This document shows, piece by piece, positions 4,401 through 62,736 of a stretch of DNA of 64,000 nt (position 1 is the first letter of the stretch; every line of letters begins with the position of its first letter). Source of the stretch: Datnioides undecimradiatus (lineage: Eukaryota; Chordata; Actinopteri; Lobotiformes; Datnioididae); the NCBI GenBank assembly GCA_008933995.1, contig WARS01000046.1:744001-808000 (forward strand). Reading direction: 5' to 3'. The position numbers and the translations under genes were made by a program. The notes under the pieces are model-generated. The model was not told where the DNA came from, made no database searches, and saw only the letters and a program-made list of their open reading frames with translations.

Positions 4401-7400
4401 GAACATTTCGGACGATGTTAGCTGTCTGACTTAATTGTAAAAAGTTGTGGAAGAGTCATTAAGTTAATGCGAGGCTTGGTTTTCTTTTCCCCTCTGTCTT
4501 ATTACCGCTGTCTTTCTTATTTTATTTTTTTTCTTGTCCTCTGGCAGCAAAGGATGAAATTAGCCTCCAAGGATGTTTTTCGTGCCCTGTCGTTCACGTC
4601 GCGCTCCGAGGATGTTCCCCCTCTCGGGTTTGTTTGACCATATGATAACACAGCAGTCTCGCTCGGTTTGACCGGTTTGATGGACGCTTCTTGGTAGATT
4701 TCCAAAAAAACAACCCTTGATTTGCAGCAATTAGTGCACAGCAGTACGATTCCATCCCTGGTGGGAAATTAAGGTTTTTTCATGTTGCTGCCAACGTCTG
4801 ATTTATCCCGTAATAAGCCAGACACCCGCTATTTTTGAAATGACTGTCGAAGGCTAAATAGAAAATACATTGTGCATGTTTTGGGACAGGCTGATTTGAA
4901 GTGTGCTGGCAGAGAGGGAACACTGTGTTCGTATACGCTGTGAAGATGTGCAGCATCTGTTTGAGTTTAGCAGTTGTTAAAGGAGGGGCTCGGCGTACAA
5001 GATTTACCAGAACATGCCAACGATTTAATTAATAATTAGTGCTTTTAGTTGATACACGTGTCTGATTCATTCATTTTAATGCCTCAGAGTCTAAGGCAGG
5101 TCTTTGCTTTGTCCACCTCAGCCTGCTGGCGTTGCAGCCAGGCTTTACAGTGGAGCATTTCACTGCACATGAGAGTGGAAATTGGACCGAATGTGAAAAA
5201 TGATTTGGCTGCACCGGTGATTAACTCCCTGGATTGCAAAATTTAGAAAAACACCGACTGTAACGAATCCGTTATCTGTCGCTTCTCGCAGGTTGAGTTA
5301 ATGCTGGCGGATGTTCACATCGTCTGCTGCTAATTAATGTTAATTCCATGAGTGACTTTATGACAGATCAAAATAAAACATGGCTGCCGTCTGGTTAAAG
5401 CGCTCTCTGCAAGCTGATGCCCGTCCTCAGTCAGAGATTGTTTATGAGGTCGGTTGCAGGAAGCATCCCTCTGTACTGTGAATGTGACACCACGCAACTC
5501 TCCAATACAGTGATAGGAGTTATAGTATTCCTGTACTTAACTTAATATCACATCAACAATTAAAGCCCATTGACCATATAGTTTTGAATTAGGACCTTTA
5601 GTATTTGAATACACTGTTTTTGTTGTCGGCAGAATATAATAAACTCTACAACTCACTGGTAGTCAGATAATTCCTGTGCACACTTTAATAGAAAATGTTC
5701 TCACACAAAGTTTCTTGGCGCAAGTAATTGATATCATTGTCCCCGTGTGGCTTATTTGGCAAAGTTTGGCTAATTAAAGTTTTGTTAAACCTGCAAAGAG
5801 GAAACAGCTGCTCTGCTGATTGAGTGTGAAGCAAAATGGGCCACAGATTAGTGTCTTTTTTCCAGTTTCCCAGACAAATCGCCGCTTTTCTGCGACCTTA
5901 GCCTTGATTCACACCGTACCAGAGTTCACAATGTCAAACCCAGCGCACCGTCGCTTGGTCTAGAGGGCATTTGTTCTTGCCCGTCTGCTCTTAACACAAT
6001 ATATGGAGCTTGGTAACATTTTAAATCTGCAGGACTTCATTCTTTCTCCTCTGCGCCCTCTAAGATACATCTTTTGGCTGTTATCCATATCTATATCCAA
6101 CCACTTTCCTCTATCATCCATCAAGTTTAAAATCTATGAGGCAGCTCTCCTCTGGTTTAACTGCCACTCCTCTCACTTATCCACACACCGATCCCGAGCA
6201 AATCACTAATCATGCAGCCGTAACAAGGATCAGTGGGACTGTCGAGCTTTCATATCTGTCTGTGTGCAAAGTGTATGTACGTGCTAACAGATGCTGTAAA
6301 CATTTGCATACCAGGCTAACTAGCTTACAGCCTGCAGGAGTAAAACAGCATTACTTTAAGGCTAAGAGTTAGCATGTCATCAGCTAATTACAGTTTTTTG
6401 GGGATTACAGGTTACTTTAGATGCTGTAAACATTTGCATACCTGGCTAACTAGCTTACAGCCTGCAGGAGTAAAACAGCATTACTTTAAGGCGAAGAGTT
6501 AGCTCATCATCAGCTAATTACAATTTTTGGGGGATTACAGGTTACTTTAGAAAAAAGACATTCACAGCTAACGTATTCACTTTATTGAAGCCAAGATGCT
6601 ATTTGAGAGGTTTATTTGGGCTAACGCTAGCTGTTCTCTTTTTTTGTTGGATTTGAGTCTAAACTTTAAGAAACACTGCCAGAATAGCTTTTGAGTTGGA
6701 CGTTTAGCTTTAGCTTCAGTCTTTTAGCGTTAAATCATGCAAGCAGCTATCACGTGCACACCAAAGAACATTTTCTTGCTTTTATTGTAAAATGGGTGAG
6801 ATGAAACATTAGAAAGTCTGGCGTTTTCACCCACTAATTGATAAAACACTGATAAACAAGCTAGCTACAGCTAATAAAATCTACTATCAACTGATGGTTG
6901 TTGTCTGAAAACAAGCTTTTATTATCTTTCTCCCTAAAATCAAGATAAATAAGAATTTCAGGTGTTGCACTTATCAGCTCGAGGTATAGCAACAGTGAAT
7001 GAAAAGGTTGTGGCTCGGGAAAAGTGAAATTGAATGCATCTTTCACTGACATCTGACGAACACCCACCTCTGTCACGACACCGTCTGGGATCAGAATAAT
7101 TGTGAGGTTAATTTGCCGATTGACTGTCAGCTTTATGCATCAATAATCAATAAGCTCATTATCAAAACACCCACATGGAGCCTGCTACAATATGGTGGTT
7201 TTGGTGCGTTTAGAATAACAAATATGAATGTGAAGGGAATTTTAGATACAGACAGGATGCAGGATTGATTCCTTGGCTGTCACTTAGTAAACACAAGCAA
7301 TATGGCTGAATTATGCAGCATATGGTGTGAATGTCAGCCCGAGCTCTGTGTGAATCTGTGCGTATTCGTATCGTCTACTGTATCGTAACGTTCACCTTTT

Positions 7401-10400
7401 GAACGTGTTTAAAACGCATGCGCATTAATATTCATATCCTGGGGGGGGGGGGTTTGTCAGACGCTGCGTGAGGAGAAGGTGTCCCACGAGAAGGAGATGA
7501 GCAACATGCGAGCTCGATCCGAGGAGGAGGTCAACCAGATGAAGGAGAGCCAGGCTCGGGCTCTGGAGGAAGTCGCCAAGAAACACAGAGTGACCCTGGA
7601 GAATGCTCTCAACAACGCCGAGAAGGACAAGAACCGCCTGCTGGCTGTGAGTACACACACACCAACACGCTCACATCTGCTCATGGACGCCAAGGTTAGA
7701 CCAATATAACATAAACATGCTGAATCCTGACCATTAGATGGTGAGTGTGCTGGCAAAATGTCTGAAAATCCACAGAATTCATTTTCAGACCGCGGCGTGT
7801 TGTGTAATCAGCGTTTATTGCTCAAAGTCGGAGGAACAGCTGTATGTTTTAATTGATCCTGCATCAGCGAGCTCGGGGCTCATCTCGAGCTGCAAAGAAG
7901 GTGTCCTTGGGAAGTTTGTTTTACTCAGTTTGGTACGAGTATCACTCTCTGTAAGGAGACCGTAGAGACCGGCACTGGGCACAATATCAGCTAGTACTGT
8001 GCAACTTTGGCACTACATGTAAGTGATTGTAGCAGACGTTAATTACTTTAAGGATGAAGAAAAATGCATCAAATCATGTGATCGGCATCTAAAACATGAT
8101 GTTCTGGTGTTCCTAGGTATTTCCTTAGTTTATTATCAACAAAAAATAAGAATTGTTGTGTTTGTCTTAGCTTAGAATGAGCGCTATATGTCTAGATAGT
8201 GACATGTTTCTACAGGAACCCTTAAGGGACAAACCAAACCCCGGCTCTAGAGATGTTTTTCATAGACATCACAGGTTCTCATGGGCTGCTCAGATAAAGG
8301 GGTACCATAGCATTCTTTTTAAAGTAGGTTGAGCTGAATAGATTAGCAGTCAGCAACCAAACAATGAATTGCTAAGTCTGAGTCGCATTTCTGGAGGCTT
8401 GACCGATAAAAGGTTGTTATTTTTGGTCTCCACCAATCACAGAAGCTGTCAGTTATGTGTCTGACACTTTAGCCTCTGGGATCAGTTGCTAATATTTGGT
8501 GTAGCTAGTGGATCATCAGCTAACCAATATCCATCCCCGACTGTCCTCTTTCTTACATTGTTTACAGTCCAGTTAACATGAGTATTTCTTGTCTGGAGGA
8601 CATTATAGCTAATATCTATCAAGCATATGACCATAGGAATGCAGAATACATTCATTTCTATTAGTATTAAAACACTGAGCAATGCACCCTTTGCAATACT
8701 GGATGGATACAAGTCATGACACATTGATAAACCCACTTAAAACTTCGATATTTCCACTATTCCTGTTGTCGAGAATCCAAATCTCACCTCCTGCGTATCT
8801 TCTGGTTGTTGAGAGATGCTTCGTTTTTTTTAATTAACATAAAAGTGAATGTGTGATATGATATTCAGGAGTGACTCAGTCAGAATAAAAGCTGTCATCT
8901 CGCTCCGCCGCTCCGGATTCGCTGCCTGCCAAAAGATTTGGACCTGTCACGCCACTCCAGTCTGTTGGTGTTATACAGTATTTGTTAATGAATAAGCAGT
9001 GATTATGAATGACAGACGTCCCGGTGGTGGATGCATATGCTCCAGCCTGATCATCACCGCACCTCTGACCACAGTTATAGCGTGTGCGTATGGAGGTAAA
9101 ATGACGCCGGCGCCTGCATTGCTGCCCAGAAAAGAGTTATAAAGGTTATAAAGGATAGAAATGCAGCGAGTACAAACACAGTCCTCTTCTGTTCGCCGTT
9201 ACGGCTCATGAAGTTGTTTGGAGAGGAGACAGCGGCGCTCATTTACTCCCCCCGCAGACACTCTGTAAGCTGGTTGAGGGATTTCAATGGGCAACTGGTC
9301 ACAAGCCTGCCTCTCTAACCTCTAAACTGACTCTACTTTGTTCACTGACTGCACCATCTGTCGCAAGAGCTGTGAGGAACTCTGAGCCCTCTTCGCCTTG
9401 AGAATCGAACATTTGCAGGGTCTCAGGAAGGTCTAAACGTTGTTCCAGAAGCTTTTCTGTCTTGGTATGAATGAAACTATTGAATGACATGCTGAATTGT
9501 GAATTGGGCATTCAAGTAATTTGGCATTGAAATACAGGTAATGTCCTTAGATTATTGTTCACGCCTGAAACACCTCAGATCTCTTTCCTCCAACCTTTTC
9601 ATTTGGCAGCCTTGCCTGTAAAAGTTCATTGGTGGTGGAAAACAGGATTAATGCGTGTTTTTCACTGCCACCATGAGCCAAAGGGGCTTCTTCTACTGTG
9701 GACGTCAACACTAAGAGAGGTTTAACTGCGTTCGAGTGGGAACTATATAAGTTCATTTGTACTAAACCAGCAGTTGTGGTGCAACCCTGAGCCTGATGGT
9801 CTGCTGCAGGAACGGTTCACATGTTTCAGGGGGTGCTTGGATTTAACGAGCGGACTGATAACCCATAAAAGACCCTATAGGTTTCTACCGACGTTTACAA
9901 GGGATACCGTATGAAACCAAGATGAGCTCAAGTTGTTTTTCTTAGTTTATCTGCCTCCCAGCTTTATCAGACCAAGCTGCACTTCCTGTTCAATACGCGA
10001 GCGTGTTTATTAAATCCATAGTCGGGCTTTAACTTAATCGCTTTTACCTTCACTGCAAAAAGAGCAGTGGTATCTAAAAAACCCACAAGCTGTTGCTGTT
10101 ACAAACGCTGATCAGCTCTACACAGCAGGACAGAAATGAGTCAGAGATGAAGTTAATGCTGGCAGCAGTCGGACCCTTGAAGGCTTTAGCGGCACAGCAG
10201 GCGACAAAGAGACGAGATCAGAATCATGAAAGTTCACATCATGACTGTAATCACACGTGTCGGCGCGCTCTGATATCACGGGAATGTGAATTTCCAAAGA
10301 TACGGTTCAGTGAGCGTACTGAATAAAGGCTTGGGATTTGTAATCTCTCTCAGCAAGGTGGTATAAAACAGCACACATTGACACTGGAGTCTAAAATTAA

Positions 10401-19400: not shown

Positions 19401-19878
19401 GAAATTCCACTTGGCTGAGCAGAAAATGCTGATGCAGTTTCAAGGTTGCTGCCACGCTGAGATTCAGCCTGAAGTGCAACACAGTGGAGGGGCGTGGGAT
19501 GTGGTTTGGCTCCCTGTCTAACTCCGCCTGAATGTCTGCCTGTCTCACCTCCAGAGGCAGGTGACCCGGCTGCAGGAGGAGGTGCAGCAGGGGGAGCGGG
19601 ACATCGGGACGGCTGAGGGACAGATCTCCACACTGAAGGAGGCGCAGGACAAACTGCTGGAGGAGCCACGCCATCAGGCCCGGCTGAGAGAGACCAGCAA
19701 CCTGCTCACTGCCCTGCAGGTCAACAAGCAGACACACTTGTTTATTGTATACTTGTGAGGACGCTCATTAATACAATGCATTCTGTCTCCCACATATCTG
19801 ACCGTATCCATCACTGTAACACCAGCTTAAGGCTCATCTAAATGGTTTAACTTCAAGCCTGAAACCAGGTTTTAACTT

Positions 19879-19918
<40 letters not shown>

Positions 19919-20574
19919 TGCGTCTTCCTATGACTTGTTTACAGTTTGATCCAAAGTCTAAAATGCAAAGTATCTAATTTACAACGATATAAAACAGAGG
20001 AACACTGCAAATACCATATTTAAGGTGACTGCACCAGTGACTGATTGGTTAATCGTTTAATAAGGAAAAGCTTTAATAATCAACTTCGCTGGAATCTCCT
20101 AGTCATGTCAGTCGCATTTGACGAGACGGATTTGTCTGGCTTTGAAGGACTTTTAGTAATACCACTGCTTTTGGATTGACACTGCCGGCAGCAGACATGT
20201 TGTGTCGGCTGCTGGCGGTGTCACTCCAAAAGGCTTTAACCTTTTTTCACGCTACAAAGAATCCCCAAAAGTTTTCAGGGTCGCCTAAAGAGCTGGATTC
20301 TTGTCGGGGCGGAAACCTCCAGCTGCATTTAGACTATGATGGCACACTAACACTTTCCTGTGAGACCTGCCCGTCTGTCTGCCTGTCTGACCATCTGTCT
20401 GTCTGACTGCCTCACAGGGTGAAATTCCAGACCCAAAAGCGTCAGCATGAAGCCAAACTCTCATCACCACCAAAGAAGAAGAAAGCATAGATATGATGGC
20501 TCTGGAGTTGAGCTGAAAATGGACTGGAAACACTCTGTGGTAGGTGTTCATGTGTGTTCAGGTAGGTGTAGGTG

Positions 20575-20605
<31 letters not shown>

Positions 20606-20740
20606 TGCGCGCACATCAGGGAAAAAGAGTGTAACACCTCTATTGTCTTGTCTTTTCACAAAAGGGAGAGCATGAAATTAAGACTGGATGGGAAAAGGAA
20701 GTCTGTCTGTTTCCCTATTTTTGTTTCCCACACTTCGTAG

Positions 20741-20789
<49 letters not shown>

Positions 20790-23700
20790 CATCTGACTCA
20801 AGGTATTGACCGTGACAGAGCATTATCCTCGGCGGGCTCCGCAACTCCTCAGCTCAATCCAGTGTTAAAGCCCCCAGCTCAAAGTCTCCGTTAACGTCCA
20901 CGGACCCTTTTTGAAGTGTTATTATTCAAAAACCTCGGAGAATGAAATCGACTGTTTTGAGGTGTGAACCGATGCACTTTTCACACAGTAGAGTCGGCAG
21001 CCTCCAAATGACTCTGTTAGAGTTTATCACGGCATTAAATTGCATCTTAATGGTGGAAACCGCAGAAAGCTTTTCTACGTAAAAGAGGGTTTTTGTCTTT
21101 TTCATGCCGAGTGCCCGAGTGCTCTGACGTCTCTTTATTGTTTTACATCACTTCTGCTGTCGTGTGATGATTTAATTGACTTTTTAATTGACTGACTTTT
21201 CCCCGGTCTGCAAGAGCTACAGACAGCGACTCCTTACGCTGTCCAGACACTACCAGTGGCATGAGTGGACGCACTCGTAATTCAGCTTGTTGGCGAACAC
21301 CGTGGGAGGATAGGTGGTTAAAAAGCTGCACCAGGGTCGGTTTGTTTCCAGTGTCCCAGTTACGCTGGATAATCCACAGAACACATTGTCAACTGTTTTC
21401 ACCAGCACTGTATTTTTATTTTTTATTTTTTTTACGCTTTTGAAAGTAGTTCAAGTGAAAGCTGTTCGCAGTGAGGTCTGTGGATTAACCGGAGTAATTG
21501 GGACACTTTCTCTGCAGAGAATTTGCTGTTTTAAAGCAGTTTTTAATGCCGTGCACATCGCAGAGCGCTCCATTCGCGTCGCCTTCACTGGCGTGAAGGT
21601 AATGCCCAGCGCTGATAGAGATGATATCTGCTTGCGTGGTTCACCAGTGGACAGGAAGGGCTTTTGTGGTGAAGGTAGAAATCAGACAATTATCTCTGAC
21701 ACGGACGCATCATGAAACGACGGTCTCCTGGGCTCAGACATGGTTAAAGGTCATCCCTCGAACAAACAACAGCTGTTTGTAGCAGTTTTTTGCGTCCAAG
21801 TGACATTTTGCAGGTTAACCTCAGCTGTAATGCGTCGCTGGTCGTCGGGAACGTCGCCTAAATGTCAGTGTCTGTTGACGCCAGAGATGAAGAGAGCCTG
21901 TTCGGTCCTGTCCAAAGGTTCCTGCCACAGCGGATCCACACTGACAACCCTTCATTACAAATGTAGATATAGAGACCACTGTAACGCAGATTACACAAAA
22001 CCGTTAAAGCCTGCGTAATATTGTTTTTTACTCATTTTAATGCAAACGTGCAGGTTAAAGATTAAGATTAAGAATTACCAATTTGCAGAGTTGACAGCGG
22101 CAAGGTAGGATAGGCATAAAACAACAATAGATTTGGATTTGGAGGAGGTAAACAAATGATCAATATGGACAATGTAAACAACATGTACAGGTAGTACAAA
22201 TTGTTCACATCTGACCTTTAAATAGTCCAGATACTCATCATTAAAAGTCTTCAACTCGGGCCAATAGAAGAACATCTCTGCTTTGAATTGGGCTCTTTGA
22301 CGACTGTAGGGGCCTCTGGACCCCGTGGGACCTGGAAATAAGCCTGGTCTGCTCAGTGATACATGGTCTCAAATGCTGGATAAATAACACCAAACTAATT
22401 AGGGCCCGAAAGCTTTAGAGCTAAGTGAGAATGGACTGAGAGTTCACTGACCCTTACGCAGTTTATATGAGCTCATAACTCAGACTGTCAGAAGAGTTTG
22501 AGTCATAAAACCCAAGTTTAGCCTGTATTAAATCGTTATTATGCCACATAATGTTTCTAATGTACTGTAATTTGTCTGATGGAGGCCTTTTTGGCTGATA
22601 TTTGACTAATATTTAACCTTCAAAAATGCTAATATAACTTCTCGTCGGCCAATGGGTGACATCATAGTGGCTCCATCTACTTCTACATGCAGTCCGCTTG
22701 TCCCAGAGTGTATCCCCGTTACTTACTAAGCCTTGTTTCCACTGCACCGGTCTGCTCAGCTCAAGACGACTCCACTCACTTGTGGCGTCAGGCGCTTTTC
22801 TGATTTTCATTGTTTCCCTGTCAATAAAGGCAGGGTTCCCAGCTGGTCGTCATGGCAATGACAAGTGACATCATCTTCCAAGAGCATTTGAGGAAATCGA
22901 AGGGACGCTGGCGACTGACACTTCATACGCTGCCGTTTGTCGCAGCAAAGAGGCAAACTTTGCTTCCGAGAAGGCTGAAAACGACGGGAGAGTTTGGGAA
23001 AAACCTGCATCAGAGTGACGGCGTTGAGACGACTCTCTGGTCTGCAGCGTGTTTGAACCTCCGCCAGGATGAGACCAAAAAAAAAAAAAAAAGCCAACAA
23101 AGAACAGTCGAGCTGAGCTGTGTGTCGTAACATGCAGCGGAGATGAAGCGTTAGCTGACAGGAGTATTTTTCAGTTGTATATCCATTCAGCACACGTTTT
23201 GATCACTCTTCTTCAAGGACTCTTGAAGAATATGGGGTAAAAGACCACTGACATACCTCCATACCTTTGTTTATTCTGCTAATGCTCCAGCTCTTTAGCC
23301 TTTCCTCACTCTCGGAGCCCATGAACATGTTTGCTCCTCCATAGGCTTCTTGCCTGAGCTGTTTGTGTGGCATTATCTTGAATAAGCATCTTAAATAAGC
23401 CTCAGATCAGGATCCTAAAATATACAAAGAAAAGGTTTATACTGACTTCGTGATCCCATCTGTTTCAAGCTAAAGGAGAGACTTCTGAGAAGCACAGAAA
23501 CAGAGGGACAATAGGTGTCAAGTCTTGCATCAAATTATAAAAGAATCAATGTTAAAACACCAGGAAGCAGCTTAGGAACCTCGAGCATCCTTCTTCCTCC
23601 TATCTCAGGAATCATCACAACCTAAATCTGTCAGCCAGCCTCTCTCCAGACGGTTGTTTTCTTTTTATACCTCCCCAGTCCTATGAAGGGTTTCTTTTTA

Positions 23701-26700
23701 TACCCTAATCATTGCAAGCACAACCTTCCCTCTCCCATCGCGCACTTAGCTAAACATGTAACTTCATCCGATCGCACCTGCTGTTTCACTGGATACTACT
23801 AGTCTGGGCTGTTTCAAGCAGCGGTTTGAAGAGGGGTCTGCAGATTACATCCAATATCTGATGTGACAAAAGCACAAACACAACAGGAAACAGCATTACG
23901 CGCAGTGACGGGATGACATTAATGACTAAAAAATGGCTGCATCAAAGACAGATTAGGGAGCGCCTGTCCTGATTTTCTCTCTGCTGCGCTGACAGGCCGA
24001 CTGTGGCCAATTCAGTTTAATCACTAATGAATCTCATAATAAGAGTGGATCTGTAAGTGGAGGTCCGCGCGCTGTAGAAATAACAAGAAATAAGAAATAT
24101 AAAGCGGCGCACTCTCTCCCGAGCACCTGCCTATCTGTCATTAGTCCCCTCCTCTCAGTCGCCTCTTCATTACCTTTCATTCACCTTCCTTTGTCTCTCC
24201 GCACAGAGCGCTTTATTCTCAGGAGAACATCTATTCATTTGGTGGCTGGGGTGAGTACACTGTGGTTAGTGAGCCGTCTGAATTAAGGAGGCTGGCTTTT
24301 AATCCCTGTTTCACAGCGGAAACAGACGGTTTCTCTGTGATAGCGTAATCACGGAAAGAGCTCCCGGGATTACCAAATGAATAGAGGCGGTTCAGCGGAT
24401 CAGGAGACTAAAGCGCAGGCAGGGCCGCGCCCGTTTGTCATGGTCGTACAGGAGCTCTTGAGGAGCACGCTGGGGACCTGAAGCCTTTGTCTCCTGGTCC
24501 TGTCAGTCATCATGACCTGGTGTGTAAATGGTTGGATGGGTTGGGACACTCATGGTCCCCAGAAGATGAAGAATGATGATGCTTTTGATACAAACTCCTA
24601 ATCTGAGTCACGCACAGGTCAAAGTTTCACCTGCCCTGTAAATATCTCAATATTTATTAGATTCATTGGCATGTGTCCAAACTTTGATGATCCTCTGAGT
24701 CTTCTGCTAACCCAAAACATGTTGTTGTCATGGAAACTCTTGGAAGATTTGCCACGAGATTTGCAGACATGATGATTGATGAACTGTGTCATAGAGCGCC
24801 ACCGTCAGGTCGAACCTTTAATACATTCAATATTTAGTTTCATCTCCAAATAACTGGACAAATAGTTTGCATCAGCCTCAGCTGGTTTGTGTTTAGTGCT
24901 AATTAGCCTGTTAGCTACATATTACGTAAGATAACATTAGCAACTTTGTCAGCGCAGAGAGTACCGAGACAAATAAAATGTCCACCCAAAGGTGCGTATT
25001 CATAATCCAATCTGTGTGAATATGCTGAATATGCTGAATATGCTAAGACATATTAGCTATACCAAAGATGGAACATGGTCAACATTATCTTCTAAACAGC
25101 GGTCTGTTATCATCGCCACTGTGAGCATGCTAGCATGGTGATGTTAGCATTTAGGTAAAATCACCATTGTGTCCAAATAGAGCCTTACAAGAGCCTAGCT
25201 AGCAAGACTGGACTGACTTTGGGTTAGGGGATGTTAGCATTGTGGCGTTAGCATCTCAGTCTCTAACGTGGCTGAAGACTCTTTGTCTTGTTGCAGCCTG
25301 ATCTAGTGTCAGTTTGCAGGAACAAACAACATAAGTCTGACAAAATGCTATAAATGTAATTACTAATTGTCTTTGTTAGGTAGCTATAACAAGAGTACGC
25401 TCCACGAGTGGGAGATTACCCAGGAAACACTTCTTTCTCATGGATGTTGAAATTCAAGTCCTCTAAGAGAGCAGCGGCACCGAAGCTCCTGCGAGGTGGA
25501 GCGCTGATTTCCCCGCTGAGTGCTCAGGCAGCTCAAACTGCAGAGCAGAGTTTTGTGTGAGAAGCCGCCAGCACGTTTCGTCTACAGTGATATTTGCGTT
25601 TGGGAATATGCGTCTAAACTCTGTACGTCTGCCCGCGATCCGACATTGACATTGACAAGGTAAACAGCAGAAGGACAGCTAATATTTAATTACCCTCATT
25701 ACCACATACAGTAGCTCTAATCCCATCTGAGTGTTTGTGAGAGGCTTTTATTAGAACGAGACTTTGAACGACATGAAAATACAGGATAACTGGTGGTTTT
25801 TGAAAGTTGCAGCACTTTGTTGAAGCTCAGTAAATCATTTCCTGGTCCTTCTTGTTTGAAGCCATTGTTCAGATCTGTCAATATGTTTTCAGGGCCGTCT
25901 TTGTGAAGCTGCCGTGCTGTGAAAATAAACAATAATAATTTTTAAAAATGATAAAATGACTGACTTATTTAAACTGTATAGGAAGCTGTTACCAATGACG
26001 GCGTCGGCTCATTTATATGGTTATTTTAAATGGAGTGAATTATAATTTCTGGGAATCTGTGGGTGTGTTAAGTCACGAACAGTGTTTTACATCTCAGCTG
26101 GAGACTAACTGTGACTTCACCTTTGTTTCTATCAATGGTGGAAAGTAACTAAGTACACATACTCAAGTATTATACCATTTTAAAGTACTTTCTTTTGAAG
26201 TATTTCCATATTTTCGTTGCTTGGTAATGTTCTACTTCTTGTCTGCATTTATCAGTACTCTGCTACATTCACTAGTTACTTTACAATTTAATATTGAGCT
26301 ACACACAATATGTCAATTAATTCAAAAGAAACACACACCAGCCTCAACATTAAAGTACTATTCAATAACATAATGCAAATTATTCTGAAATGCACCATTC
26401 TGCATAATCAGTGCTTTCAGGTTCTTTATGTATTAAGTTTTGATGAGTATTTCTACACTGCAGTATTGCTATTTTTACTTATCTAATACATGTCAGATAC
26501 ACTAAAGAGACGTGCCAGGTGGTGATGAGACGTAATTATGGGCCCGTAACTGCGTCGCACACGTGATCAGAGGGATGCTGAGCACACGCAGGTCCACATG
26601 CATAAAGGCATATACCTGGGATGAGCATGCGGGCCTTATATCTAATAGCACAGACGGTAAAACGCAGCCAATTATTCCACATTTTATCAGGATGTGTCCT

Positions 26701-29700
26701 CCATCTTTGACAGCTCCTCCAACCCTCCGCTCCTCCACTCCCCCTTTCCTTTACCTCCCTCCGTCTGCCCTCGTCTCTCCTCTCATGTGCTATAGAACAA
26801 TGCTTATTAGGTACACCGGCGCTCTTTGAAGCCCAAGGCCTGTGTGTGTGTGTGTCTGTGTGTGTGTGTTTGAGAGAAAGAGAGACGTGGAGAGAGAGTC
26901 GGCGCATGCGTGCACCGACGTCCGCGGCCGTGTGCTTTTATACTGAACGAGGACATGAATGATGACACGTGTCAAGTGTGCTGCATGATGAACGTGACTG
27001 TCTGGTGTGTGACTGCACCGCTGTTGCTGCTGCTGCTGCTGTGTGTGTGCGTGTGCGTGCGTGTGTGTGTAAGAGAGAGCGAGCCGTGAGAGAGCCCGCC
27101 TTCAGTCTGACACTTTCTGGCTCTCGAAGTGACCAAAAAAAAAAAAAAAAGTGTTTGCCTCGATACTTCATTTAACAGCTGCCATTTCAACTCCCACACA
27201 CCTATTATATTGGCTGCACACACACACACACACATCATGCAAAGATGCAAAGAGGTGCGAGCAGCAGCTTTAAAGAGTAATGGTCAATAGATGCAATGCT
27301 GAGGTCTGATAAAGGACCGTTTACTGTTCCCTTAAAGCCGATGCTGAGCTCCCTGAAGCGCCTGTATCTCAGCCGGCTGCTTGTTTGAGTCTCCTCTTTC
27401 ACTGGATGTTGTTGTTGCAGCAATCCCGAGCGCCAGCGACGCGAGAACCAAAGCTAATTACGTCGTTATCTTGAGAAAATAAAGCTTATTTTGTTGTGAT
27501 AACGGGTTAATAAAGCCAGGTCTCCTGTCACGGCGAATGAGGGATAACTCACCCGTCGTCCTCTTCCTCCTGACCTGACGCTTCTCCTCTGTCTCATGTC
27601 AAAATCTGGTATGCATCAGAGGAGGCTGTGCATAAAAATCCAGGGCAGGTCTCCTCCTGCATCGATTCAGGAAGGGACGGTACATTTTATTGATTGGCTG
27701 CAAACATAACGAGGACCGATGTGAACTTTACCTCGGACAGAAAGATACGGCGCAGCTTCCTCCGGTGTTAGACCTTGATTAAAGTACGGCCTGATGTCTT
27801 GATCAATAACGGCTACTCCTTGATCTGACATTTTCAGCTTGAATCAGTCGCCGCCGTCGTCATGATGCCCCAAATGCACGCTGGCGTGGTGCCCCAGATC
27901 TCTGATAAACATTAAAAGTAATAAGGGGGACGCGACCTTTTGTTTTCTCCTGATAACAGGTTGATTATTTTGTTATCTAGAGAAAATAAAGCTTGTTTTC
28001 TCTGGAAAATTAAATAATTAACCCGAGATAACGGCATGCTGCCTGTCCTCGGTACGAAGACGGTTGAGCATTTAGCAGCTAAAGACTCAGACAGGTTGAG
28101 TCAGAGCTGGTGGAGACCAAACTAAAGCTAAAACAGATTGTTTATTGCTTTATTATGGCTGAACTGCTCAGGAACATCTCAATTTTACTGAGCCGTGATA
28201 CGTCATTACCTAAAAAATAATAATTTGGCTTCACCAAACCTCAGGATCAGCCATACTGAGTTAACGATGTTTTAAATTAAAGTTGTGAGAGCTCAGGTCT
28301 TATAATAAACTCACTCCATCCTCCTTCCCTCACACATTGATATTCTGTTTTGTTGTTGTTGTTATTATATTGATTATTCGAGTGTAAAGGCACTGACCCT
28401 TGCTCTCTCTTCTTCTGGCTCCAAATAAATAAAGTTTTCAATCAGTTCGGCAGTTCGACCCGACGCTGGTGCTGATGCAGGTTTGGCGACCCGGCAGCGT
28501 CAGACAGAAACGTCAATACACATATCCGCGTTTGTCTTTGCTGCCGCTGTAGGCAGGAGTGCAAGAAGCTGCGCGAGGAGCTGAGAGAGGAGCACGAGGA
28601 GGACAAGGCGTCGGCACTGGCTCAGCTGACACAAACCAAGGAGCAGGACATGAGCAACGCCAGGGAGAGCTGGCAGAGGAAAGTGGAGGACCTGCTGGAA
28701 CAGGTACGGCCGCCGCCGGTGGACCTGCGTACGCGTGCAGTGCAGTGCGTGCACGGGGGGGGGGGTTTACAAGCCCCTCGACTGCTCTGATGGAGTGTTT
28801 TTAATGTTTTAATACCCTGTGAAGTTACCCCCCGTTTACTGGTTACAGATTGGTTTAATCGTCAACTTGTGCTGAACACAAAATACCACATGCCTACAGC
28901 TTCTAGTTGAATGGCTGCAATTATACCGGTGGTATAAAAATCAATAGTCGGGTGGGGGGGAAGAGAGAGGATGAGTGAGCCAATAAGAGCAACTGCCTCG
29001 CTTCAAAGCTCAGGTTGCCCCTGTAAGACCTCCCGCCTGTGCCGCCCTGACTTGTGTCTTCCTCGCACTGGTGGACAAACTCGCTCACACATTCGTTATT
29101 TGGCGCCGTGGCGGACACACCGGAGCTGGCCTCTGTCGCTAATGACCGCCCGGTAATATTAATGTAGCGTGACTAAGCTCTCCTGTGGTCATCGTGCGCG
29201 CAGCACGCTGTGTCAGTGGCTTCATTTATGTTCATTTCTGCCTCTGATGATGATTTGTCGTCACGTCCGAGCTGTCCGTCAGCTGCCCGTCCAGGGATTA
29301 ATGGGAGCGCTCCATGCCTGGCGATCAGCACAACCATATTTATTTACTCTGATGTCAAATCAGGGCAGCGGTCAGTCTCTTGATGGATACACACTGACAG
29401 GAGATGTTTGAAAAGCAAGTCATTGTCTAGACTCTGGCCTGACAGTCTGCATATTTAACAGATTCCAGTGCCTTTAACTCTGTCCAAAATCCATTTTAGC
29501 ATCTGGGAGCGCACAGAAAAGGCAAAAGTCCCAAAAAATACAATAACAAATGTGTGTGTCATGTTTGCAAGTGTAAGTATGAGGATGAAGCCATGTTTGC
29601 ACCTTTAGTAATACAAGGAATAGGCACATCTGCACATTCAGCTGCTGTACGGAAGGTTTTAGCATCTTTCAGCTCATTGTTTTGACTCTACACCCTTCAC

Positions 29701-61700: not shown

Positions 61701-62736
61701 CCGCCCTCCTGCACGCCATCGTGAAATCTCCCCACTGAAGCGACCGAATGTTTCGAAGTCGTGCGTTCCGTTCGTGCGGGATCCTGTCGCATCGTAACGA
61801 GAAGCCGCTTTGAGAAAACGTGTTTTCAGGGTCTTTAACGGGAAAACATGACATCTGACTTCCCACAGTATGTGTGAGCTGAACGGTCCACCACTGCATG
61901 ATCAGTACATGACTGTTGACGCCATGTCTCAGGTTCTATAACTTCCAGTATTTGTGTTCCAGCCGTTACATGTATGTTTCCACATGTCTGCGTGTGTGCC
62001 GTGCGTTCGCCCTGTGCTGGTTTTTATTTACATCGTGTGTTTGTGCGTCTCTGTACGCCAGCGGTTCTTCCTCCCGATCTCGATTGTTCCTCCCGACTCA
62101 CCCCCACCCCCACCCCCTCCTCCTCCAGCTTTCCTTTGCTTTCCAAGCCATTTGTTAGTGTTGAGATGTTTTCTGCTCTGACACATCTCTCCTCATCTGC
62201 ATTCTGCTCAGAGCGACTGATGCTTTAAGACTGAGACTGATTGATGCCAGTCTTCAGATTGATCCATTCACTCTGCTTCGGTCAACGTTGAAATATGATC
62301 AAGTTAGCACGCTGCTCTTTACCTCTCTCTCGCTGGATGGACCTCCAGGGCTGTCCCTGTTCTCCATTTCCCCCCTTTAATCCCTCCATCTCTTCTCATC
62401 CTTTATTATTTTGTGCCCAACTTCCCTTTTGCTCCTTTTTTGACCTCCATGCCCCTCCTTTTCTTTTGTTTTTCTGTGTAGCAAAAGAGAAAGAATGAGA
62501 AAACAGCAGCCAGCAGATTCAGCAGCTCTTCTAATGTCAGGGCTATGGAGGCAGCAGGTATGGGCGTGGGCGTGGCAGGTTCAGGAAGTGGGCAGCCCCC
62601 ACAGCCCCCACCCCCCCCCAGCCCAGCCCAGCCGCCTAGAGCCCATCCCCAACTCCCCCCTCCACCACCTTGAACTCAACTCCAACAAACCTCTTCCCCC
62701 GCCGACCCCTCCCACCGAACCCAAGAAATTCATGAG
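1361..62736 (+). CDS. fam184a: fam184a, internal part (gene-level span, spliced)
   Basis: Gene-level entry for the spliced coding region described exon by exon below. The joined exons encode about 730 to 790 residues, depending on the 20418 exon and the 62558 mini-intron, against about 1140 for the human protein as I remember it. The product is rich in Glu, Gln, Lys, Arg and Leu with heptad spacing, so it should be a long coiled coil; no membrane segment is visible in the part seen. FAM184A has no well-defined biochemical role that I can state, so none is assigned. FAM184B is the paralogue; the conserved C-terminal block ending in the NPLIKQKRKN motif fits FAM184A better. Start codon and 5' exons are outside to the left, the stop exon probably to the right. 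Every intron phase is compatible with its neighbours. Confidence 0.9.
1497..2848 (+). other. intron
   Basis: About 1.35 kb. No repeat family recognised and no second exon seen; the open stretches here have no splice context or family similarity. Confidence 0.75.
2849..3030 (+). CDS. fam184a: fam184a exon
   Basis: Acceptor tgtcatag ends at 2848; the first two bases GT complete a Ser codon with the A left by the previous exon (phase 1 to 2). It reads S-QISSLQATQMTQEAAIRDL, then DNERSRLKDKVLRMEEERES and LQSQCQALDERQKQQLQSLEK. LQATQMTQE and the RDLxxExSRLK pattern are conserved FAM184A landmarks. The exon ends AAG in phase 0. The donor is the first GT of a (GT)n microsatellite (gtgtgt), so the splice site sits inside a length-variable repeat. 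Coiled coil throughout. Confidence 0.93.
3031..3077. repeat. (GT)n followed by G-run, at splice donor
   Basis: GT units from 3031 with one TTTC interruption, ending in about ten G. The first GT is the donor of the 2849-3030 exon. Confidence 0.95.
6291..6550. repeat. 130-bp tandem duplication (two copies)
   Basis: Copy one is 6291-6420, copy two 6421-6550. Both begin ATGCTGTAAACATTTGCATA and end GGATTACAGGTTACTTTAG, with a period of exactly 130 and only a handful of differences (for example CCAGGC against CCTGGC, GGCTAAG against GGCGAAG). No open frame spans both. Confidence 0.95.
7441..7452. repeat. G12 homopolymer at 3' splice site
   Basis: Twelve consecutive G, then tttgtcag and the exon start. 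Confidence 0.95.
7461..7646 (+). CDS. fam184a: fam184a exon
   Basis: Acceptor tttgtcag ends at 7460, directly preceded by a run of 12 G (7441-7452) where a pyrimidine tract would be expected. The 186-nt exon is phase 0 at both ends and reads TLREEKVSHEKEMSNMRARS, then EEEVNQMKESQARALEEVAK and KHRVTLENALNNAEKDKNRLLA. The donor gtgagt is perfect. EEEVxQxxExxxxxLEExAxKH matches the vertebrate FAM184A segment following LEKKVNE. It joins both neighbours without a gap in the alignment, so no exon seems to be missing in the 4.4-kb and 9.7-kb introns on either side. Confidence 0.93.
10874..11160 (-). mobile_element. AGTAC-rich teleost repeat, inverted copy
   Basis: Starts near GAGGAAGTATTTAGGCCC, then TTAGTAACTAGTAACTAAAG and GGAGTAGAAGTAGAAACTGG, and ends near ACACTTGAGTTAAATACAAG. 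This is the reverse complement of the family seen at 26131-26495 and 50579-51150. I recall the family as a very common teleost interspersed repeat, probably non-autonomous; the class is not certain. Degenerate, no coding capacity. Confidence 0.7.
11600..11631. repeat. (GC)n(GT)n microsatellite
   Basis: GCGCGCGCG followed by about eleven GT units; alternating purine-pyrimidine sequence able to adopt Z-DNA. Confidence 0.9.
12224..12274. repeat. ATGG/ATGA/TTAA-type tetranucleotide tract
   Basis: Degenerate array of GATG, AATG and AATT units in about 50 bp. Confidence 0.8.
16675..16960 (+). mobile_element. teleost interspersed repeat fragment (CCCAGAGGATGAA / TTAGCATGCTAG family)
   Basis: Contains GTCCCCCAGAGGATGAACC, later GCTGACGTTAGCATGCTAGT and TTACAGCCTCACGTAGCTGC. 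The same order of motifs occurs at 24520-25330, and partly at 54540-54860. I know this combination from spiny-rayed fish genomes; the element class is not clear to me. Confidence 0.6.
17328..17450 (+). CDS. fam184a: fam184a exon
   Basis: Acceptor ggtttctgcag ends at 17327 and donor gtaatg starts at 17451. The 123-nt exon has phase 0 at both ends and reads ELEQQFERERLSLEEQKTLL, then RQQLDEMRDELTSKLTAANE and a final E. It aligns with the vertebrate stretch DLEEQHNKDKLNLEEDKNQLQ, with the core RLSLEEQK versus KLNLEEDK. Coiled coil. The short size is typical for this gene. Confidence 0.92.
17451..19554 (+). other. intron
   Basis: 2.1 kb without a recognised repeat or gene. Contains an open stretch at 18548-18865 with no family similarity. 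Confidence 0.7.
19555..19719 (+). CDS. fam184a: fam184a exon
   Basis: Acceptor gtctcacctccag ends at 19554. The 165-nt exon, phase 0 at both ends, reads RQVTRLQEEVQQGERDIGTA, then EGQISTLKEAQDKLLEEPRH and QARLRETSNLLTALQ. The motif GTAEGQISTLKEAQ is the counterpart of GSAEGLIASLQDSQ in the vertebrate protein. The chosen donor after CAG is gtcaac, which is weak at positions +3 to +6. Reading through it would add VNKQTHLFIVYL and then stop at 19756. The weak donor and the broken next exon make this part of the transcript the least certain. Confidence 0.88.
19881..19916. repeat. (AC)18 microsatellite
   Basis: Uninterrupted AC tract upstream of the broken exon; complementary to the GT tract downstream of it. 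Confidence 0.95.
20418..20539 (+). pseudogene. fam184a: fam184a exon with broken reading frame
   Basis: Acceptor ctgcctcacag ends at 20417 and donor gtaggt starts at 20540. The 122-nt length and the phases (0 in, 2 out) are exactly those of the vertebrate FAM184A exon beginning GELEQERQQHEE and ending KWTENL. The entry frame starts GEI and later gives TKEEESIDMMALELS and KWTGN, recalling MKEEEKLKVDKMA and IKWTEN, but it has TGA at 20448 and at 20514. Between these, similarity moves to the +1 frame: QKRQHEAKLSS (20434-20466) recalls QERQQHEETIAA. At least three frame shifts are therefore needed, although net length is kept. Other exons are intact, so this exon is probably dead and skipped, or this stretch is badly assembled. 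Confidence 0.72.
20572..20612. repeat. (GT)n microsatellite
   Basis: About nineteen GT units with a GG and GC interruption, starting 32 nt after the broken exon's donor. Confidence 0.95.
20741..20786. repeat. (CA)22 microsatellite
   Basis: Long uninterrupted CA tract, opposite in sense to the GT tract 130 bp before it. Confidence 0.95.
24520..25330 (+). mobile_element. teleost interspersed repeat (CCCAGAGGATGAA / TTAGCATGCTAG family)
   Basis: Contains CATGGTCCCCAGAAGATGAA, then GATGATCCTCTGAGTCTTCT, CATAGAGCGCCACCGTCAGG, GAGCATGCTAGCATGGTGAT and finally GACTCTTTGTCTTGTTGCAG. The series in this order is the fullest of the three copies in the window, with a 9-bp triplication inside it (25018-25044). 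Strongly diverged; no open frame of note. Confidence 0.65.
25018..25044. repeat. three direct copies of GAATATGCT
   Basis: Perfect 9-bp unit repeated three times. Confidence 0.95.
26131..26495 (+). mobile_element. AGTAC-rich teleost repeat
   Basis: Begins ATCAATGGTGGAAAGTAACT and AAGTACACATACTCAAGTAT, contains CACCATTCTGCATAATCAGT, and ends with GAGTATTTCTACACTGCAGT and TATTTTTACTTATCTAATAC. It shares both ends and inner blocks with 50579-51150 and, inverted, with 10874-11160. Non-coding, degenerate. Confidence 0.75.
26841..27234. repeat. cluster of GT, CTG, A16 and CA simple repeats
   Basis: GT at 26841-26869, (CTG)n leading into GT/GC at 27021-27070, A16 at 27135-27150 and CA at 27216-27234. 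Long apparent open frames on both strands here are produced by these tracts. Confidence 0.9.
28553..28703 (+). CDS. fam184a: fam184a exon with tandem acceptor
   Basis: Reads QECKKLREELREEHEEDKAS, then ALAQLTQTKEQDMSNARESW and QRKVEDLLEQ; donor gtacgg starts at 28704. This matches vertebrate QECSKLREELRLQHEEDKK and the later ARDSWQKKVEDLLNQ. Two acceptors lie 4 nt apart: AG at 28551-28552 (exon begins with G, phase 2, as expected after the 122-nt exon) and AG at 28555-28556 (exon begins GAG TGC, phase 0). The second would join directly and in frame to the CAG ending the 19555-19719 exon, removing exactly 42 codons. Which is used cannot be read from the sequence. Confidence 0.92.
28704..30898 (+). 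other. intron
   Basis: 2.2 kb. A GC-rich start with a G-run near 28756-28765. The stretch 29655-29730 resembles 14371-14440 (TTTTAGCATCTTTCAGCTCA against AGCATCTTTTAGCTCG), a further repeat of unknown class. An open frame of 138 codons at 30011-30427 has no recognisable similarity. Confidence 0.65.
30899..31111 (+). CDS. fam184a: fam184a exon
   Basis: Acceptor ctctccgtccag ends at 30898; donor gtaggc starts at 31112; 213 nt, phase 0 at both ends. It reads ISLLKQSLEMQLSQSQSSLQ, then QLQHQFSQEREHLRMQLDEL, QAEHQRRQQRLQEVHCCSLQ and DMEHARQRDLK. ISLLKQxLExQLSQSQxSLQQLQ is nearly identical to the vertebrate FAM184A segment and is one of the best markers in the window. Gln-rich coiled coil. This is the largest exon without an irregularity. 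Confidence 0.95.
33946..34340 (+). mobile_element. L2/Rex-like LINE, C-terminal reverse-transcriptase-domain remnant
   Basis: Frame segments read HNAAAWVLTKTRRR, the usual QNAAARVLTxTRRR, then SDIKILLLGYKSLNSRAPEY ISD, which matches the DFKILLLxYKALxGLAPxYLSD motif near the ORF2 C-terminus of vertebrate L2/CR1-type LINEs. The linker normally found between these motifs (HITPxLxxLHWLPV) is missing. Frame breaks are present. Dead copy, same orientation as the host gene. Confidence 0.8.
37005..37040. repeat. (GT)18 microsatellite
   Basis: Uninterrupted GT tract within the intron. Confidence 0.95.
38393..38546 (+). CDS. fam184a: fam184a exon
   Basis: A long C/T-rich tract (about 38095-38390) leads to the acceptor ctccatcag ending at 38392. 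The 154-nt exon is phase 0 in, phase 1 out. It reads ELEERLRHHHQAELQSLREA, then HRQSIETLKQQSEQELQTLR and FELEDEGKAML. The final part, EQELQTLRFELEDEGKAML, is essentially invariant in FAM184A. The donor is gtaagg at 38547, leaving a single G that starts an Ala codon completed by the next exon. Confidence 0.95.
38547..40686 (+). other. intron
   Basis: 2.1 kb. GT tracts near 38562 and at 40314-40350, and an AT-rich partly palindromic tract with repeated ATAATGTACAT units at about 39593-39638. No gene seen. Confidence 0.7.
40314..40350. repeat. (GT)n microsatellite
   Basis: GT units with GA and GC interruptions. Confidence 0.9.
40687..40814 (+). CDS. fam184a: fam184a exon
   Basis: Acceptor tttcccaatcag ends at 40686; CC completes the Ala codon begun in the previous exon. 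Reads A-SLRSELNHIHASAIEHLRQ, then THQQEAAAAKMELEKTLENN and RTQ; donor gtaggt at 40815, phase 0. SLRSELNHxHAxAIxxLRxxHxQExAAAKMELE is the vertebrate FAM184A pattern. The end (ENNRTQ) is less conserved, as in the family. Confidence 0.95.
42092..42128. repeat. (CA)n microsatellite
   Basis: CA tract with two CG interruptions. Confidence 0.9.
43573..43620. repeat. (GT)n(GC)n microsatellite
   Basis: About sixteen GT units passing into GCGCGCGCGCG; alternating sequence with Z-DNA potential. Confidence 0.95.
44170..44460 (+). mobile_element. teleost repeat with TTTGGCAGACGCTTCC...AAAGCGACGTACA
   Basis: Starts with CTTTGGCAGACGCTTCCAAA and GCGACGTACATACAG, continues with GCAGGTGTTCTGAAAGCAAC, GTCTTTAGCAGTTTCTCGAA and AACTCGTTCCACCTCTGAGG. 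I recall this order from a widespread fish repeat; its class is uncertain. Non-coding here. Confidence 0.65.
46059..46093. repeat. perfect 15-bp inverted repeat, 5-nt loop
   Basis: Arm 46059-46073 (ATCATTGAACGAGAT) is the exact reverse complement of 46079-46093 (ATCTCGTTCAATGAT), loop TAATC. No T-run follows, and nothing identifies it as a terminator. Further shorter inverted repeats lie just before it: CAGTGAATG at 45961-45969 with CATTCACTG at 45981-45989. Confidence 0.9.
46858..47042 (+). CDS. fam184a: fam184a exon
   Basis: Acceptor ttgcccatcccag ends at 46857; donor gtatga at 47043; 185 nt, phase 0 in and 2 out. Reads ERELLGRITELQEEVSRRKN, then HIAQLDHQIHTLNENISTLT and KELELKGKEVLKIRSEANQQIR. 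The part LxENISxLTKELExKGKExLxIRSExNQQIR is strongly conserved in FAM184A. The last codon AG| is completed to Arg by the next exon. Coiled coil. Confidence 0.95.
49486..49516. repeat. (CT)n microsatellite
   Basis: About fifteen CT units. Confidence 0.95.
49697..49737. repeat. (GT)n microsatellite
   Basis: GT units with a TACG interruption near the start. Confidence 0.95.
50579..51150 (+). mobile_element. AGTAC-rich teleost repeat, longest copy
   Basis: Left end CATGGTTGAAAGTAACTAAG and TACATTTACTCAGTAC; inner AATGCATCAGTACTAATAAT; right end AATGCAGGACTCACTAATAA, GAAGTATTTTAAATTGTAGT and AAAGGATCTAATTCCTTCTT. Same order of blocks as at 26131-26495, but longer (about 570 bp). No coding capacity, so a non-autonomous element. 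Confidence 0.75.
51334..51480 (+). CDS. fam184a: fam184a exon
   Basis: Acceptor gtctctcctcag ends at 51333; the first G completes Arg. Reads AHEQELTKRHERELAELSAV, then HSRETQNMLSDFNKAQEVLK and DKISALQIL; donor gtatgt at 51481, phase 2. It corresponds to LHEQDLNKRLEKELDVM in the vertebrate protein, followed by a conserved DFNKxxExLK segment. Intron phases 2 and 2 on either side mean the exon could be skipped without a frame shift (147 nt, 49 codons). Confidence 0.94.
52995..53480 (-). mobile_element. L2/Rex-like LINE remnant with internal deletion
   Basis: On the minus strand the order is LNQDKSEASLF, ESLGVTVDAVISK, ITKMTFFHLRNVR, then SRLRAFSVAGPHVWIILPAR. These match the LINE reverse transcriptase landmarks LNxDKTEVLxF, LGVxxDxxLSF, ITKxAFFHLRNIAR and the ORF2 C-terminal LRAFSVAGPxLWNSLP. 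The part usually between FFHLRN and the C-terminus, about 100 residues, is absent. Frames are broken; a dead copy. Confidence 0.82.
54540..54860 (+). mobile_element. teleost interspersed repeat fragment
   Basis: Holds TGGGCTGCGATGAAATTTGG, TGCAGGGATCCATGCTCCTC and GCATGCTTACATGTAAAGCT AGCATGATGA. The GATGAAATTTGG...CCATG block and the AGCATG block belong to the same kind of element as at 24520-25330. Confidence 0.55.
56449..56466. repeat. (CAG)6 triplet repeat
   Basis: Six perfect CAG units followed by CAA; intronic. Confidence 0.9.
57610..57760 (+). pseudogene. decayed coiled-coil-like coding remnant, origin unknown
   Basis: One frame reads NSARAAKAILELQQQKVFD, a TGA at 57688, then QEEHDASAIRRAQKDQHSS and TQII before another TGA. 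The Ala/Glu/Gln/Lys-rich heptad-like content is unlike the surrounding intron. It could be a duplicated or obsolete exon of the host gene, a processed pseudogene piece of another coiled-coil gene, or chance. I do not recognise the source. Confidence 0.3.
59035..59058. repeat. (GGGCA)n tandem repeat
   Basis: Four GGGCA-like units, the last GGGAA; G-runs spaced regularly. Confidence 0.9.
59350..59467 (+). CDS. fam184a: fam184a exon
   Basis: Acceptor catgtttctcatctcccag ends at 59349; the first G completes Leu. Reads LEGTEEKFRNRESRPEDLQL, then IAELKDMVSERESLVKKLV; donor gtaggt at 59468, phase 0. The pattern EEKxxxRESxPEDxQxIxELKxMxxER is typical of FAM184A. A second GT lies at 59472 (gtaaca), four nt downstream, but would shift the frame into the next exon. 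Confidence 0.95.
59468..60669 (+). other. intron
   Basis: 1.2 kb with a LINE fragment at 59770-59960 (minus). The remainder shows nothing recognisable. Confidence 0.75.
59770..59960 (-). mobile_element. LINE reverse transcriptase fragment
   Basis: The minus strand reads VINCGVPQGSALGPVSFSLV, the classic LINE reverse transcriptase motif GVPQGSVLGPLLFSL. Only this piece of the domain remains; the catalytic block that normally follows is not present in an open frame. Confidence 0.85.
60670..60774 (+). CDS. fam184a: fam184a exon, conserved C-terminal block
   Basis: Acceptor ggttttcttctccag ends at 60669; donor gtaggc at 60775; 105 nt, phase 0 at both ends. Reads DDKKFYQLELVNRETNFNKV, then FNASPNVGVINPLIK. 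This is the best conserved block of FAM184A and the main ground for the gene name. The heptad pattern ends here, so the coiled coil gives way to a C-terminal tail of low complexity. Confidence 0.97.
60775..62481 (+). other. intron
   Basis: 1.7 kb; no repeat family recognised. The last 400 bases are C/T-rich, ending in the polypyrimidine tract of the next exon. Confidence 0.75.
62482..62736 (+). CDS. fam184a: fam184a exon, C-terminal tail, with possible internal mini-intron
   Basis: Acceptor tttttctgtgtag ends at 62481; reads QKRKNEKTAASRFSSSSNVR AMEAA in phase 0. Beyond that the same frame runs through Gly- and Pro-rich sequence to a TGA at 62671-62673. The conserved continuation RLEPIPNSPLHHLELNSNKP and PTEPKKFM lies in the +1 frame. 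Removing 62558-62621 (gtatgg...ccccag, 64 nt) as an intron joins G|CC and gives AAAQPSRLEPIPNSP in frame. Alternatively the run of nine C at 62611-62619 has a wrong length. Donor gtgaga follows at 62737, phase 2, so at least one more coding exon is needed. Confidence 0.9.
62558..62621 (+). other. candidate 64-nt mini-intron
   Basis: The segment starts gtatgggcgtggg and ends with a C-rich tract and cag. Its 5' half is G-rich and its 3' half almost pure pyrimidine, as in very short vertebrate introns. Its removal restores the conserved FAM184A tail frame exactly. At 64 nt it is at the lower limit for a teleost intron. The competing explanation is an unspliced Gly/Pro-rich insert with an uncertain C-homopolymer. 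Confidence 0.45.

Follow-up and report, generated by a model that had tools for sequence, protein, structure and literature searches.

Exon Layout of the Locus

The analyzed window is a stretch of 64,000 nucleotides from the genome of the fish Datnioides undecimradiatus (C307:744001-808000), the assembly of which comprises 581 Mb in 497 contigs, with C307 itself being 39.2 Mb long. Human FAM184A (1140 aa) was taken as the reference for exon identity and for all human residue numbers given here. By tblastn and frameshift-tolerant alignment, 15 exons of the window, from E1 (1361-1496) to E15 (62482-62736), are collinear with residues 341-1113 of this protein. All 15 chosen exons have AG/GT borders, and their total length is 2364 nt. 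The gene extends beyond the window on both sides, with six exon-sized matches upstream (starting at C307:689270 and covering human residues 1-339) and one match downstream (SPPETKDSAIDSPDAQRQEWFAQYFSF, L012:3609-3689), and no break was seen in either extension. Such a collinear series of matches (15 in the window, 6 upstream, and 1 downstream) is what an orthologue of human FAM184A should present, and the gene is probably FAM184A of this fish, a coiled-coil protein.

Nine of the 15 window exons were also scanned singly for protein families. The Pfam FAM184 family (PF15665) did not reach its cut-off of 32.7 in any of them, giving two weak matches (17.2 and 14.9 bits), in one of which it was outscored by FBF1 (20.6 bits, cut-off 45). 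As single exons are short and the FAM184 domain is mostly encoded upstream of the window, this result says little. Pattern searches with E7 in viral contigs and with E8 in genome contigs returned 16 and 159 stretches, respectively, with no confirmed relative in either set. The neighboring genes MAN1A1 and ASF1A, tried as a quality control, matched nothing at E 1e-3 across 204 kb of C307. Two further features were observed along the contig: a run of N (729 bases, possibly an assembly gap) at C307:666479, upstream of the gene, and a 130-bp unit present as a tandem pair with 94% matches at window positions 6289-6551.

Table 1. Features in and around the broken exon, the exons discussed, and the second FAM184A-like gene (window positions unless a contig is named)
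Feature	Coordinates	Strand	Remarks
E5	19561..19719	+	Open, phase 0 out; one codon shorter than E5 of the C486 gene
(AC)17 array	19883..19916	+	Upstream of E6; TRF
Strong near-perfect fold-back, intron 5	20168..20232	+	Ends 186 bases before E6
E6, frame-broken exon	20418..20539	+	Homologous to human FAM184A 606-645; TGA at 20448-20450 and 20514-20516
+1 versus the intact exon of C486	about 20427..20428	+	Placement within a CC pair arbitrary
-4 relative to the C486 exon	between 20459..20460	+	Similarity back in frame 0 after it
+3 relative to the C486 exon	about 20524..20526	+	From the alignment to C486
(GT)n array	20572..20607	+	Begins 33 bases after E6; the sole one of 12 dinucleotide arrays with TRF indels
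(AC)22 array	20742..20786	+	Downstream of E6; TRF
E7	28553..28703	+	Intact; acceptor TAG|GCAG|GAG permits a second start at 28557
E15, second frame-broken exon	62482..62736	+	Leaves the frame at or close to a C9 run (62611-62619)
Second FAM184A-like gene	C486:5645000-5704999		21 matches, read as 22 exons, human 1-1046

The Frame-Broken Exon E6

E6 is 122 nt long, bordered by AG and GT, and has phase 0 in and phase 2 out. In these respects, and in its position, it is exactly as described in the initial annotation; the two TGA codons in the frame that E5 and E7 impose and the jump of similarity between two frames were likewise reproduced. Similarity passes from frame 0 to frame +1 and back: residues resembling the human protein or the second gene described below are GE in frame 0, QTQKRQHEAKL in frame +1, and TKEEE, MMALEL, and KW again in frame 0, with a short ELK match in frame +2. 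The lesion is present in the assembled sequence. The two in-frame stops are close to the random expectation for the composition of E6 (shuffle mean 2.3, P(>=2) 0.69), so they show loss of the frame and nothing more.

The homology of E6 is not a product of chance. Its frameshift-tolerant global score against human residues 606-645 is 73, as compared with a mean of -1.5 (sd 9.6) and a maximum of 35 in 300 dinucleotide shuffles. When the window was scanned locally with this segment, E6 scored 77, and the next place on the + strand (50) was E9. Within the intron 19720-28552, the best other place on the + strand scored 36, and the best minus-strand place of the whole scan (40, at 23293) lies in the same intron.

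With a single pair of frame changes allowed, the gain in raw score is 41 for E6, 130 for E15, and 1-14 for the 13 other exons, the ends of E1, E9-E13, and E15 being accurate to a few bases in these scores and in the simulations below. A second pair in E6 adds 12, which is within the gains from a first pair in E5 (14) and E12 (12), and therefore only one frame-change pair of E6 is counted as sure.

E15 is the other exon in which the frame is clearly broken; it returns to the conserved C-terminal tail after the frame change. The C9 run near this change is the longest single-base run across the 15 window exons, and the change may be a homopolymer error, a polymorphism, or a true frameshift. The fourteen exons other than E6 had been said to need at most one frame correction; E15 has to be added to the broken exons, and its frame change is presumably the correction that was meant.

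A Second FAM184A-Like Gene with an Intact E6

A search of the fish's own assembly revealed a place on contig C486 that is 75% identical to E7, and around it a second FAM184A-like gene. Stops occur in this gene only where three matches extend into presumed intron; its part beyond human residue 1046 was not found among the matches listed for its 60 kb. The two genes share the exon order over human residues 1-1046 and an E6 of equal length (122 nt) and phases (0 in, 2 out), but in the C486 gene E6 is intact (EEIETQRQQHEARVMSIRTEEKQKMDKMADDLDQKWRDAL) and E7 lacks the second acceptor at the corresponding position. The intact E6 aligns to the human sequence without gaps, 20 of 40 residues being identical. 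The 15 window exons also match human residues 341-1113 in order, with E6 aligning to 40 residues, whereas E6 and E15 are frame-broken in the window gene. The C486 gene is probably a fish-specific duplicate. It could in principle be FAM184B rather than FAM184A; it aligns, though, to human FAM184A from the first residues onward.

The protein encoded by the intact exon matches the window E6 in two pieces and two frames (20422-20484 and 20463-20522, each at E = 0.03). Relative to this exon, the window E6 carries a stop and three indels (+1, -4, and +3) that sum to zero. When the alignment is made to the human protein instead, the change at 20459/20460 reads as +2 and -6. The first two indels bring the TGA at 20448 into frame; that at 20514 may be a nonsense change or may reflect a further -1/+1 pair.

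It is highly improbable that a working copy elsewhere has left E6 as a relic, or that E6 is read by means of alternative splice sites. No second copy was found by DNA in the stretches of C307 (204 kb) and C486 (60 kb) searched, and a protein search of the same sequence gave only the C486 exon and weak matches (E >= 0.13) outside E6. An intact copy between 19720 and 28552, which the initial annotation had raised, was not found, as the intron scores of 36 (+) and 40 (minus) against 77 indicate; an intact version does exist, but in the second gene. A repeat of 19720-21200 inside the window, which might have allowed error rates to be compared, did not turn up: self-blastn with a low-complexity filter matched this stretch only to itself. 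As for other splice sites, 108 stop-free, phase-compatible AG/GT choices lie near E6 (starts 20300-20639, lengths 25-260), which lends this explanation some room, yet the best of them has a combined site score of 2.1 versus 4.8 for the sites of E6 itself, and the leading candidates would translate into GT-repeat peptides.

Substitution Pattern in E6

We used the C486 gene as a yardstick in a frame-aware comparison of E6 and ten other exons (E1-E5, E7, part of E8, E11, E13, and E14). With the indels placed, mismatches in E6 number 12/39, 11/39, and 20/38 at the first, second, and third codon positions; the differences fall mostly at third positions, as in intact exons, and the codon pattern that a decayed exon would lose is retained. 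At the first two positions together, 23 of 78 sites differ in E6 (29%) versus 169 of 620 (27%, hand-summed) in E1-E5 and E7. Damage to the splice sites, another mark of decay, is also absent, AG and GTAGGT being in place.

The probability of 23 or fewer such mismatches is 0.26, 0.036, and 0.009 with 0.1, 0.2, and 0.25 extra neutral substitutions per site, respectively. Neutral vertebrate DNA accumulates about eight substitutions per indel; at this rate, three indels would come with approximately 24 substitutions, or 0.2 per site. In simulated decay (208 trials, run without a fixed seed), the score of E6 was reached with four indels by 2.9% of the trials at 8 substitutions per indel and by 21% at 4 per indel; the corresponding values with two indels were 23.6 and 56%. 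Indels without substitutions reached it in 70 and 78%. Starting from the five lower-scoring exons (E1, E3, E4, E5, and E12), decay at 8 per indel never reached the score, whereas indels alone did so in 22-44%.

Residue conservation gives a different shade. Of the residues common to the C486 gene and the human protein, E6 keeps 12 of 20, the lowest proportion among the 11 exons, which hints at a real relaxation of this exon; the other ten keep 206/245, and the intact neighbors E4 and E5 keep 27/43. The C486 E6, conversely, retains 12 of the 14 residues common to the window and the human protein.

Constraint on the exons following E6 appears no weaker than on those preceding it, judging from scores of 2.35-4.54 per residue in E7-E14 versus 1.46-2.82 in E1-E5. 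Since this constraint is undiminished and the substitutions in E6 are still codon-patterned, long neutral decay fits poorly: on these sequence comparisons, old decay is disfavored, whereas a recent lesion is compatible.

One such recent lesion would be a young null, i.e., an allele or copy inactivated by E6 and perhaps E15, with the other exons still undecayed and the C486 gene carrying on. We consider this unlikely. Two of the 15 window exons are clearly frame-broken and a second gene is present, which speaks for it, but disabling changes should be spread along the gene, and all except that of E15 sit in 122 of 2364 nt, while the matches outside the window, both upstream and downstream, are without a break.

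Splicing around E6

In splice-site matrix scoring, the acceptor of E6 ranks fifth lowest among the 15 with 1.8, and the donor, at 3.0, is mid-range. With its sites present and mid-range, E6 is expected to be included and then to bring about a premature stop. Long-standing skipping is thus not suggested by the sequence, because an exon that looks splice-competent would end translation.

Direct joining of E5 to E7 at 28553 shifts the frame. The alternative acceptor at 28557 is the only one with which the flanking exons can be joined in frame: the splice from 19719 to 28557, proposed earlier as a junction to look for, is arithmetically sound, removing 126 nt (42 codons, or six heptads). The AG of this acceptor (28555-28556) stems from a CAG codon of E7, and the C486 gene has no AG there.

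A true and recent loss of E6 in a living gene, with transcripts joining E5 to 28557, is conceivable in its arithmetic, and we regard it as a possible but doubtful account. It would remove 126 nt with the frame kept, the coiled-coil register could be kept as well, and the second FAM184A-like gene, with its intact E6, may have eased the loss. The reading frame from E5 into 28557 is open as far as the frame change in E15, the acceptor at 28557 scores -0.6 versus 0.9 for 28553 by matrix, the exons that follow are conserved, and the low proportion of shared residues in E6 points the same way. Against this stand the mid-range splice sites of E6, from which inclusion and a premature stop are expected, as well as the substitutions, which should be more numerous per indel in a long-lost exon; nor does E7 of the C486 gene, lacking the matching AG, give any sign of a family habit. 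The more specific claim is harder to credit again, namely that a living fam184a has just lost E6 while moving the next exon's acceptor by four bases (122 + 4 = 126 nt, six heptads), leaving frame and register unbroken, with the segment kept by the sister gene. If the lesion is true, a coiled-coil protein would have been shortened by whole heptads via a tandem acceptor, and the change caught soon after the event.

A Possible Local Fault of the Assembly

The likeliest reading of E6, to which we assign a probability of about 0.5, is a local assembly or consensus fault. Both readings offered initially, loss of a segment in a living gene and a local assembly fault, survive, and the evidence leans toward the fault in view of the splice sites that are present, the codon-structured substitutions, the undiminished constraint downstream, and the homopolymer-associated frame change of E15. 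Such a fault does require clustered errors, as no more than one further clear frame change was observed in the gene. General sequencing error had been held to be a poor explanation; this is fair for evenly spread error, as the errors would have to be clustered here, but does not extend to a local patch of low quality.

Under such a fault, fam184a of this fish would be normal and the deposited sequence wrong in a short patch around E6. The patch, lying between microsatellites and a fold-back, may have been filled in, or its bases called, with insufficient or unpolished reads, which would have left short indels uncorrected in it, and the frame change at the C9 run of E15 would be a separate, ordinary homopolymer error. 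The real protein would then have the 40-residue coiled-coil segment, as do the C486 copy and the human protein.

Errors of this kind are described in two sources. In vertebrate assemblies based on CLR, short indels were the most frequent errors prior to polishing and caused frameshifts, and an unpolished locus accounted for frameshifts remaining in TLK1 (PMC8081667); InDel errors are listed under PacBio-based assemblies (PMC5632298). The frameshifts described in the former source resemble E6 in that short indels break one stretch of an otherwise good gene. Two properties of E6 fit less well. It has no single-base run longer than 4, which counts against a fault, and its indels differ from the usual single-base error of long reads, -4 and +3 being larger; these sizes are not known to be the commonest among long-read errors.

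E6 lies within a 904-base stretch that contains three dinucleotide arrays (Table 1), but a triplet this tight has a P of 0.10 under uniform placement, so this setting is neither striking nor proof of a fault. The fold-back upstream has an MFE of -49.9 kcal/mol, compared with -23.75 +/- 3.15 in shuffles (z -8.3). No Rfam family matched it at cut-off, the best sub-threshold matches being microRNA families far below their cut-offs, and no second copy of it was present in the sequence searched.

Should the deposited sequence prove faulty, the protein predicted from it would be incorrect too, as would any report of exon or gene loss in this species. The locus would then be useful for learning to distinguish clustered errors of assembly from genuine exon decay, by way of the codon-position pattern against an intact sister gene. 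In the FAM184A literature surveyed, nothing on this exon came up; in PMC8535871, Fam184a appears as an entry in a table listing genes with alternative splicing.

Splice Sites and Frame of Other Exons

E5 admits a -2/-1 pair of frame changes both against the human protein (score 77 without the pair) and against the C486 gene (132 to 134). As the gain is small and the exon is open, it is not counted as broken. Its donor, CAG|GTCAAC, is the lowest of the 15 by matrix score (-0.5, followed by -0.3 in E12). Two in-phase acceptors precede E5, at 19555 and 19561 (window 19555-19566), of which 19561 corresponds to the point where the C486 exon begins. The acceptor of E3 (window 7440-7461) follows a G run and has the fewest pyrimidines (4/15) among the 15 acceptors.
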